Source of the DNA: Stutzerimonas stutzeri
Lineage (GTDB): Bacteria > Pseudomonadota > Gammaproteobacteria > Pseudomonadales > Pseudomonadaceae
Length of the DNA stretch: 64,000 bases
Assembly (NCBI RefSeq): GCF_000219605.1
Contig: NC_015740.1
Coordinates: 3,906,001-3,970,000, forward strand
Direction of reading: 5' to 3'
A program made the translations under genes and the position numbers. How positions within the stretch are numbered: position 1 is the first letter of the stretch; every line of letters starts with the position of its first letter. The notes below the pieces were generated by a model. That model was not told the origin of the DNA, did no database searches, and was given only the letters and a program-made list of their open reading frames with translations. Positions 61,651 through 64,000 of this stretch are shown here, in pieces.

Positions 61651-61748
61651 GGTGGATGGCTTCGGCCATCCACCCTACGCCCGTCGAATCGTAGGGTGGA
61701 TAACGCCGCAGGCTTATCCACCGAAAGCGGCGCAGCTTTTTCCACGCG
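61651..61748. repeat. Palindromic repeat cluster in the urtD-urtE gap
   Basis: GGTGGATGG-CTTCGG-CCATCCACC with CTACG (61651-61679), then CGTAGGGTGGATAA ... TTATCCACC (61690-61722), then a partial unit GAAAGCGGCGCAGCTTTTTC with CACG (61723-61747). The first two face each other tail to tail, as in the eutB-eutC gap. They fill almost all of the 130 bases between urtD and urtE. Confidence 0.85.
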
Positions 61749-61773
61749 TCACGAAAGAAACAAGGACATCGAC

Positions 61774-62472
61774 ATGCTGCAAGTCCAGCAACTGCACCAG
61801 TACTACGGCGGCAGCCATATCCTGCGCGGCCTCTCGTTCGAGGCGAAGGTCGGCGAAGTCACCTGCCTGCTCGGACGCAACGGCGTCGGCAAGACCACCC
61901 TGCTCAAGTGCCTGATGGGCCTGATCCCGGCCAAGGAAGGCGCGGTGAACTGGGAGGGCAAGCCGATCACCGGCTTCAAGCCGCACCAGCGCGTGCACGC
62001 CGGCATCGCCTATGTGCCGCAGGGGCGCGAGATCTTCGGCCGCCTGACCGTCGAGGAAAACCTGCTGATGGGCCTGTCCCGTTTCAGCGCCAGGGAAGCC
62101 AAGGAAGTACCCCAGTTCATCTACGAGCTGTTCCCGGTTTTGCAGGAAATGAAGCACCGCCGCGGCGGCGACCTCTCCGGCGGCCAGCAACAGCAGCTCG
62201 CCATCGGCCGAGCGCTGGCGAGCAAGCCGCGCCTGTTGATCCTCGATGAACCCACCGAAGGCATCCAGCCCTCGGTGATCAAGGAGATCGGCGCGGTGAT
62301 CAAGAAGCTCGCGGCCCGCGGCGACATGGCGATCCTCCTGGTGGAGCAGTTCTACGACTTCGCCGCCGAACTGGCCGACCAGTACCTGGTGATGAGCCGC
62401 GGCGAGATCATCCAGCAGGGCCGCGGCGAAAACATGGCCGCCGAGGGTGTGCAACGCCTGGTGGCGATCTAG
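61774..62472 (+). CDS. urtE: Urea ABC transporter, ATPase UrtE
   Basis: An ATPase of 232 residues of the LivF type. Walker A is GRNGVGKTTLLKCLMG, the signature is DLSGGQQQQLAIGRALASKP, Walker B is LLILDEPTEGIQPS, and the H-loop position has EQF rather than a histidine, as in LivF relatives. The start at 61774 has CAAGGACATCGAC upstream. Unlike urtB-C-D it is not overlapped with its neighbour but separated by repeats. Confidence 0.95.
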   Translation: MLQVQQLHQYYGGSHILRGLSFEAKVGEVTCLLGRNGVGKTTLLKCLMGLIPAKEGAVNWEGKPITGFKPHQRVHAGIAYVPQGREIFGRLTVEENLLMGLSRFSAREAKEVPQFIYELFPVLQEMKHRRGGDLSGGQQQQLAIGRALASKPRLLILDEPTEGIQPSVIKEIGAVIKKLAARGDMAILLVEQFYDFAAELADQYLVMSRGEIIQQGRGENMAAEGVQRLVAI

Positions 62473-62546: not shown

Positions 62547-62575
62547 AGCGTTGGCGCCAGCAGGGGGTGCACGGC

Positions 62576-64000
62576 ATGCACGATGCGTTCGACTCTTCCG
62601 CCCCGGCCGAACATGCCAGGCCGCTGATCTGGCTGTCCTGGCTGTTGGGCGCGGCCATGCTCGGCGTGCTGGTGGTCGGCGTCCTGCAGCTGGCCGACGC
62701 CAGCCACTTCGCCCTGGTTCTCAGCCAGGCCGAGCCGGCCTGGCTGCTGGTCGCCATCGCGCTGCAGGGGTTGACTTACGTCGTCCAGGGTCAGCTGTAT
62801 CGCCAGGTACTGACGGCCGCGGGCACGTCGCTGCCGTTGTGGGACGCCACCAAGCTCAGCCTGACCAAGCTGTTCATCGACCAGGCCCTGCCTTCCTCCG
62901 GATTCAGCGGCGCGGTGGCGGTGGTCGCCCTGCTGCAGCGTCGCGGCATCGCTGTGTCTCAGGTTTCCAGCTGCTTCATCGTCAGCGTGTCGGCCTATTT
63001 CGTGGCCTACCTGCTGGCGCTCGGCGCCGCCCTCTTCATCGCGATCGACAGCGGCCATGGCAGTCTCGCCGTGATCGCCACCAGCGCAGCCTTCATGCTG
63101 TTCTGCGGCCTCATGGCGATCGCCGCACCGCTGATCGCCGGGCTGCCGCAGGGCGCCCTGGCCAGGCGCCTGCAACACGTGCGCTGGATGCAGCGCCTGC
63201 TGGCGATGGTGTTCGCGGCCGAGCCCCGGCTCACGCGCAATCCGCGCCTGCTGAGCTGGGCTAGCGGCTATTCCCTGCTGATCGTCCTGCTTGACGCCCT
63301 GACCCTCTGGGCGCTGCTTCACGCGGTCGGCCACGCGGCGCCCTTCGCCGGCATCTTCGCCAGCTTCATGCTGGCCAGCGTGTTGCGCAGTGTCGGCATC
63401 GTGCCGGGTGGGCTGGGTGCGTTCGAGGCCGCCGCGGTGGCGACCCTCAGCTGGGCCGGCGTGCCGCTGGCGGCCGGCCTGTCGGCAACGCTGCTGTTTC
63501 GCGTATTGAGCTTCTGGCTGCCGATGCTGCCCGGCTTCTGGCTCTCCCGGGACGCCTTGCGGGCCGGCGCCGCAGACCACCACGAGACTGTCACGCCGGA
63601 CTACTGGAGCCAGCCGCTGGATGAGCTCTACGCCAGCCTGAAGAGCGGGCCGAACGGGCTCGCCAGCGACGCTGCCGCCGCGCGACAGCCGTCGGTCAGG
63701 CGTACGTACCGGCCGAACCTGGCGCGGCAGGTCGGCGCCTCGCTGCTGCGCCAGCTGTCCAGCCCGCTGGTGCTGATCCTGTTGATCGGCGCGCTGGTGG
63801 CGCTGATCGCCCATGACTGGCTGGATGCCCTGATCGTGCTGGCCATCGTCATCGCCAGCGCGCTGGTCGGCAGCCTGCACGAGGTCCGCTCCAACCGCGC
63901 GATTGCGCGCCTGCGTGAACAGGTGGCCAGCCGCGCCGATGTCTGGCGCGACGGGCGCCTGCAGAGCCTGGCCGCGGATGAAGTGGTGCCCGGCGATATC
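62576..64000 (+). CDS. Flippase-like (LPG synthase TM-type) domain fused to cation P-type ATPase, 3' end outside window
   Basis: One uninterrupted frame of 475 codons runs from an ATG (GGGGGTG upstream) to the window edge. Residues about 17-330 are multi-spanning and carry RSVGIVPGGLGAFEAAAVAT (269-288), the signature of the UPF0104/lysylphosphatidylglycerol-synthase membrane domain. Residues about 342-475 begin YWSQPLDELYASLKSGPNGL, a cation-ATPase N-terminal domain, then the M1-M2 pair (PLVLILLIGALVALIAHDWL onwards) and the actuator start ending LAADEVVPGDI, as in MgtA/SERCA-type P-type ATPases. The catalytic DKTGT lies beyond the window. Ion and lipid substrates are unknown. Confidence 0.85.
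   Translation, partial: MHDAFDSSAPAEHARPLIWLSWLLGAAMLGVLVVGVLQLADASHFALVLSQAEPAWLLVAIALQGLTYVVQGQLYRQVLTAAGTSLPLWDATKLSLTKLFIDQALPSSGFSGAVAVVALLQRRGIAVSQVSSCFIVSVSAYFVAYLLALGAALFIAIDSGHGSLAVIATSAAFMLFCGLMAIAAPLIAGLPQGALARRLQHVRWMQRLLAMVFAAEPRLTRNPRLLSWASGYSLLIVLLDALTLWALLHAVGHAAPFAGIFASFMLASVLRSVGIVPGGLGAFEAAAVATLSWAGVPLAAGLSATLLFRVLSFWLPMLPGFWLSRDALRAGAADHHETVTPDYWSQPLDELYASLKSGPNGLASDAAAARQPSVRRTYRPNLARQVGASLLRQLSSPLVLILLIGALVALIAHDWLDALIVLAIVIASALVGSLHEVRSNRAIARLREQVASRADVWRDGRLQSLAADEVVPGDI

Follow-up and report, generated by a model that had tools for sequence, protein, structure and literature searches.

The sequence analysed here is a stretch of 64,000 nucleotides of Stutzerimonas stutzeri DNA (hereafter the window; G000:C1:3906001-3970000 of a genome that consists of one contig of 4,547,930 bases). 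Its end carries the 5' part of a gene in which a membrane domain is joined to a P-type ATPase. The features at this end, in window coordinates, are as follows.

61696..62472, + strand: open reading frame of an ABC ATPase, read as urtE (named from reading the sequence); the upstream neighbour, ending 103 bases before the ATG at 62576.
62576..64000, + strand: 5' part (475 codons) of the fused gene, the rest of which lies outside the window and ends at genome position 3972124.
62645..63535, + strand: LPG_synthase_TM domain, residues 24-320, predicted to have the fold of the MprF flippase/scramblase domain (Pfam PF03706, AlphaFold2, Foldseek).
63404..63427, + strand: PGGLGAFE, residues 277-284, at the tip of the second hairpin, with E284 aligned with E295 of MprF.
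63536..63601, + strand: stretch linking the two Pfam domains, about 22 residues long (residues 321-342) and of variable sequence.
63602..63802, + strand: Cation_ATPase_N (Pfam), residues 343-409, the start of the putative P3B ATPase.
63923..64000, + strand: first part of the E1-E2 ATPase (actuator) domain, which covers residues 450-639 of the complete protein and extends beyond the window.

Translation of positions 62576-64000 on the + strand gave 475 residues without a stop, and tracing of the frame past 64000 gave a complete protein of 1182 amino acids followed by a stop codon. AGGGGG sits 8 bases upstream of the ATG at 62576; the earliest start in the frame is a GTG at 62567, an alternative to this ATG. 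Pfam placed LPG_synthase_TM (PF03706) at residues 24-320 (E = 1.4e-35, 123.7 bits against a gathering score of 33.4) and Cation_ATPase_N (PF00690) at residues 343-409 (E = 1.1e-8, exceeding the gathering score), and in the full protein E1-E2_ATPase at 450-639, Hydrolase at 656-939 and Cation_ATPase_C at 1008-1169. An earlier note on this DNA had found no stop between 62576 and the end of the window, had placed PGGLGAFEA at residues 277-285 and had seen a UPF0104/YbhN-type domain in a single frame with a cation P-type ATPase. The translation and the Pfam assignments bear this out, and extension past 64000 added DKTGTLT (with D662), GDGINDAP and the C-terminal ATPase part in the same frame. A frameshift or assembly artefact is excluded by fused frames that are open in four other genomes of the genus and at 16 loci of other organisms. 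The gene is a true single-frame fusion of a PF03706 domain to a whole P-type ATPase.

Downstream of the fused gene lie genes read as ureD and ureC, a reading supported by a ureB sRNA match (Rfam). In G010 and G066 the flanks of the fused gene differ, and in the other organisms read they are wholly different; because the neighbourhood varies in this way, urea is not part of the explanation and a urea-linked function was rejected. A Mg2+-sensing RNA leader was not backed by Rfam either, the ureB sRNA being the sole match at gathering scores in the 14 kb searched. Elsewhere in the window, an inverted intergenic repeat around CGTAGGGTGGATAACG occupies positions 61655-61722 (three exact copies of this 16-mer occur in the genome versus none of a control read backwards), and two tandem tRNA-Leu(cag) genes are found at 499-585 and 704-790.

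The N-terminal domain was modelled with AlphaFold2 from residues 1-345 and 42 relatives (pLDDT 88.5, pTM 0.85). The model was counted as eight helical elements spanning residues of about 15-334, two of them re-entrant helical hairpins with the tips LPSSGFSG and PGGLGAFE. MprF was absent from a sequence-profile search of the PDB with this domain and was found by Foldseek: all six PDB matches below 0.001 were MprF (E from 5.3e-6 to 2.9e-4, TM-scores of 0.57-0.63 by query length), the best being 9j8s_A (E = 5.3e-6, TM-score 0.63 by query length, rmsd 5.4), and the next match after this set was unrelated, at 0.079. In an hhalign alignment to L164, an MprF-like protein from a sampled genome, E284 and R309 correspond to E295 and R319, given as a salt-bridge pair of P. 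aeruginosa MprF in PMC11980842. The pair stands between the final hairpin and the final helix; among the non-reference rows, all 82 have E284 and 81 have R309. A bifunctional MprF was ruled out, as the whole-protein model NF033480 scored 53.6 bits against 600 with a match limited to residues 21-324 and without the synthase domain. By its predicted fold the N-terminal domain corresponds to the flippase/scramblase half of MprF, and a scrambling activity may be expected of it.

The ATPase half had been called MgtA/SERCA-like in the earlier note. The first half of that name stands: the NCBIfam model for magnesium-translocating P-type ATPases (TIGR01524) scored 754.9 bits against a cut-off of 610.75, whereas the SERCA-type model (TIGR01116) reached 339.8 against 703.4, so that a SERCA-like identity is ruled out. 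The PMR1 and proton-pump NCBIfam models also scored under their own cut-offs. DKTGT, TGE and GDGxND, which we take to be the catalytic motifs of P-type ATPases, are present within one frame. The closest solved relatives are MgtA structures (phmmer match to 8uy7, E = 3.4e-180, residues 347-1174). Residues of the Mg2+ path of MgtA (M4-M8), as named in PMC10925321, were placed by motif in an alignment of 75 ATPases: E620, N992, N995, N1020, S1062, D1066 and W1088 are invariant across all 21 fused rows and all 15 high-scoring MgtA rows, and D1024 is found in 20 of the 21 and in all of the 15. Since E620, N992, N1020 and S1062 are present also in the outgroup (n = 2; other cation ATPases of the source genome, read as P2-like), only N995, D1024, D1066 and W1088, which are missing there, discriminate. 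At the position of MgtA S705 the window protein has A (as in 18 of 21 fused rows) and at that of Q814 it has E (13 of 21); the positions of H729 and Q733 are occupied by Q and N, and are variable among the high-scoring MgtA rows. By family the ATPase half is assigned to the P3B (MgtA-type) magnesium pumps and would import Mg2+. Two more cation ATPases of the genome, read as P2-like, lie about 23 kb apart at G000:C1:3357830 and 3334392.

Occurrence of the architecture was followed through a series of censuses. In the genus the domain was found in five of 56 genomes (threshold 1e-10), every time in a frame of more than 1180 amino acids. In the family it was found in 11 of 298 genomes (1e-20) and was fused in nine, one of these (G1322) with a broken frame; the other eight have frames of more than 1180 amino acids, five of them being the genus members and three (G1196, G1315 and G1177) being taken as fused from frame length. 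Of the two that remain, G1230 has the ATPase as a divergent neighbour of the domain gene, and in G1201 the domain stands by itself and an ATPase of weak similarity begins 4.3 kb further on. At the level of the order, only the window's own genome was positive among the 390 sampled (1e-12), and at that of the class four of 369 were (1e-8): the window's own, G482, G591 (an mgtA-like gene as divergent neighbour) and G506, where an mgtA-like gene ends 10 bases ahead of the domain gene.

A scan with patterns from the N-terminal alignment, covering one genome each for 84,980 species, gave at least 80 loci; the motif WLPMLPG is part of the scan patterns and is therefore shared by many of these loci through their selection. 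The 80 loci listed were retrieved by means of the N-terminal domain alone; 18 of them have a P3B ATPase fused to it, 16 in one open frame and two (L048 and L065) frame-broken in the ATPase part. A separate P3B ATPase gene lies within 1 kb at 17 others, in both co-directional orders as well as divergent and convergent; 15 of these fall inside the P3B part of the ATPase tree, and L108 and L113, pieces cut by contig ends, were judged by tblastn alone. The others listed comprise one broken remnant (L122), one locus beside another P-type ATPase (L114), two with the ATPase more than 1 kb away (L057 and L077), one weak case (L080) and 40 without an ATPase match (60 bits) in the flank, some flanks being shortened by contig ends. 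Some of these loci repeat genomes of the earlier sets (L098 is identical to G984 in the ATPase tree, and L048 and G1322 lie on contigs of equal length), so the censuses overlap. Chance neighbourhood was rejected, since a P3B gene was fused or within 1 kb at 35 of the 80 listed loci, compared with a rough estimate of far less than 1% expected within 1 kb of a random gene.

Fused forms were found in Azotobacter vinelandii, several Pseudomonas, Peristeroidobacter (two loci in one genome), Myxococcus, Anaeromyxobacter and Pyxidicoccus, and the architecture thus reaches distant groups including Myxococcota. Eight further fused proteins, taken from the 20 other open fused ones, were scanned and all eight pass both the PF03706 and the TIGR01524 cut-offs. 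The architecture is rare but recurrent, and the earlier note is accordingly corrected on two points, in that the pump is P3B by family and the pairing recurs in distant bacteria. At L114 (2936-7062) a member of the N-terminal family follows immediately after a P-type ATPase gene; the NCBIfam model that this ATPase matches best is that of the Na,K/H,K type, with a score short of the cut-off, and the partner may therefore not always be a magnesium pump. Around the fused genes L055, L061, L062 and L068, neighbours were read as universal stress proteins, Hsp20, an FNR/Anr-type regulator and PEP synthase. Plasmid carriage of the fusion was ruled out, as none of 221 plasmid records with a match covers 80% of the query in one place. 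The long frames of G1039 (1120 amino acids) and G548 (1213 amino acids) were considered as another N-terminal fusion and rejected, since the domain was unmatched in them and the upstream open frames were read as non-coding.

Viewed from the side of the pump, 63 of 398 genomes of the phylum contained TIGR01524 proteins (n = 68), 48 of which scored at least 1100 bits and 20 less than 900. PF03706 domains (1e-6) in these 63 genomes were linked to three of the 20 low-scoring ATPases (fused in the window's genome, divergent neighbours in G984 and G994) and to none of the 48 high-scoring ones, with coordinates read by eye and a Fisher p of about 0.02 calculated by hand. With three of 68 proteins beside or fused to PF03706, most P3B pumps in the sample are not linked to it.

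The history of the two halves was examined in separate trees. The ATPase tree had 75 rows (a quick LG+G4 tree with SH-aLRT support only) and was built without L048, L065, L108 and L113, and without L057, which at 500 residues was too short; the N-terminal tree was built without L119-L123, and L066 and seven references were also left out because they were not found by the profile. In the ATPase tree the fused rows need six changes, five of them forced by well-supported branches, and one clade for the 23 fused and deleted ATPase rows was rejected by the AU test (p-AU = 3.7e-10); with L056, L058 and L060 removed (20 rows), one clade was not rejected (p = 0.456). The ATPase of L058 is of the high-scoring type (1143 bits), whereas its N-terminal half groups as sister with the one from L064, whose ATPase falls in the main group. 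Together with the ATPase tree, this contrast indicates that related N-terminal domains were joined to at least three ATPase lineages, with the caveat that L058 comes from a metagenome bin and depends on its assembly. One clade for the N-terminal halves (23 fused rows plus L046, L047 and L050) was rejected as well (p = 0.019), so that further domains, whether stand-alone or from neighbour genes, branch within the fused set. L046, L047 and L050, from Pseudomonas, are themselves stand-alone domain genes nested among fused ones, with no match to the window's ATPase within 6 kb on either side. Their neighbours were read as a zinc-ribbon protein, a GroEL-like chaperonin and a phosphoribosyltransferase, and the fused locus L049 has zinc-ribbon and GroEL-like neighbours as they do.

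The domain has also been lost. In L030 (G029) and L031 (G036) the pump is found at the orthologous locus with about 1 kb of domain-coding sequence deleted in frame, its ATPase being 98% (G029) and 92% (G036) identical to that of the window; the two belong to different species and are broken at the identical point (MHAAF, one residue, RW[LF]S), and no other match to the domain was found in either genome at E = 1e-10. The domain is therefore not essential to the pump, which can stand alone. For six pairs of fused genes in the genus, dN/dS (NG86) was 0.07-0.17 in the N-terminal half and 0.13-0.26 in the ATPase half, and for three pairs with the deleted forms it was 0.11 in the ATPase; both halves are under purifying selection. 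In the linker stretch (residues 321-345) dN was 0.36-0.63 in five of the six pairs and 0 in the closest. A model of the full A. vinelandii fusion gave pLDDT 82.6 and pTM 0.63, with pLDDT below 50 at residues 335-343, and with this pTM and the weak linker the relative placement of the halves is unsure.

In the mechanism proposed here, a short and presumably cytoplasmic linker tethers the MprF/YbhN-type domain to a complete P3B ATPase. The pump would import Mg2+ with ATP, as MgtA does, while the N-terminal domain would move or gather anionic phospholipids (phosphatidylglycerol and cardiolipin) at the pump; it would thereby supply the lipid required by this pump class and may balance lipid between the leaflets while the divalent cation is moved. 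P. aeruginosa MprF is described in PMC11980842 as a lipid scramblase whose in vitro substrates include PG, PE, PC and aminoacyl-PG, and the authors point out that ybhN lies close to cardiolipin synthesis genes. E. coli MgtA, according to PMC4758953, needs anionic lipid, its ATPase activity rising thirty-fold with DOPG and hundred-fold with cardiolipin. Given the scramblase reports and this lipid need, handling of anionic phospholipids by the tethered domain for a Mg2+-importing P3B pump is judged the most likely reading, with chances that we would put as even. Standing against the supply of lipid is the M7 helix, at which cardiolipin has been modelled in MgtA (PMC13174805): the position matched to the cardiolipin-contact tryptophan is aromatic in 12 of 15 high-scoring MgtA rows and in none of the 19 fused rows read there (of 21), the position being approximate, as it was matched by motif and with the paper and chain numberings unreconciled. 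The basic position adjoining this tryptophan is R or K in 14 of 21 fused rows.

The N-terminal domain could instead be a passive scaffold, a module for stability or targeting that may bind lipid without transporting it. MprF-type domains do bind lipids in structures (PMC11980842), G029 and G036 have retained the pump gene after loss of the domain, and accessory membrane parts are known for the pump class, since MgtA is described as regulated by cardiolipin and by small transmembrane peptides in PMC13174805. The strict conservation of the hairpin tips and of E284 and R309, as well as the occurrence of the domain family as a separate neighbouring gene, argue for more than a passive partner, and we regard this explanation as considerably less likely than lipid handling. 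Somewhat more doubtful is that the two halves have independent functions in one regulon, such as envelope homeostasis under stress or low Mg2+, and were joined for co-expression, the fusion having no mechanism of its own. Such an origin would accommodate the variety of gene orders and orientations among the separate neighbours, the stress genes (universal stress proteins, GroEL-like, Hsp20) read near several loci and the fact that the halves are separable in nature, but fusion of the domain to at least three ATPase lineages goes beyond what co-expression alone requires. Active ATP-driven flipping, in which the pump cycle or its ion gradient drives directed lipid transport by the attached domain, would suit the physical tether and the broad substrate range of the MprF-type domain, but we consider it very improbable; P. 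aeruginosa MprF is described as a scramblase whose transport is independent of the proton motive force (PMC11980842).

Handling of anionic lipid for the pump remains the preferred reading. The earlier note had taken the fusion to mean that ion and lipid handling are coupled, or that the pump is held in a particular lipid setting, and we still infer as much; repeated fusion and adjacency, the MprF fold, the scramblase activity of MprF and the anionic-lipid need of MgtA favour it, and it is weakened by natural forms with one half only and by the unlinked state of most P3B pumps. The fused or side-by-side genes in distant bacteria suggest that the pump works together with its surrounding lipids. 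A stronger proposal, which we consider unlikely, is that of a separate class of lipid-coupled Mg pumps: the MprF-type scramblase domain, whether fused to the pump or present as a separate subunit, would take part in P3B transport, so that Mg2+ import and anionic-lipid movement would be mechanically or kinetically linked; if it held, an anionic lipid moved across the bilayer would carry or activate Mg2+.

No paper on a PF03706 plus P-type ATPase architecture was found in the open-licence literature, in agreement with the earlier note, which knew of no functional description. We also know of no account of how cardiolipin or phosphatidylglycerol is kept at MgtA. The natural and repeated fusion to a domain with the predicted MprF-scramblase fold would offer a direct handle on the lipid supply of the pump, and variants with and without the domain at the same locus make its role testable by comparison. 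The fusion likewise offers the poorly understood UPF0104/YbhN family a physiological partner.

Compared with known systems, the window protein shares with MprF (PF03706) the predicted fold, the LPSSGFSG and PGGLGAFE hairpin tips and the E/R pair, and differs from it in having neither the second transmembrane domain nor the aminoacyl-transferase domain; the fusion partner of the domain is a lipid-modifying enzyme in MprF and an ion pump here. With YbhN and GpgF (UPF0104, stand-alone PF03706) it shares the family, by name, but those proteins are not fused to a pump; a bulk-lipid role has been suggested for YbhN (PMC11980842) and a flippase role predicted for GpgF (PMC12713373). Thirteen PF03706 references were fetched, of which seven were left out (not found by the profile), and the six other PF03706 proteins of sampled genomes in the N-terminal tree, among which YbhN and GpgF themselves are not included, fall outside the subfamily on long branches. 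With MgtA and MgtB (P3B; PDB entries 8uy7 and 9ejn) the window protein shares the entire ATPase half, the TIGR01524 pass and the Mg2+-path residues; it differs in carrying an extra N-terminal domain of about 340 residues and in having a low-scoring ATPase for the family (one of the 20 out of 68 proteins below 900 bits).
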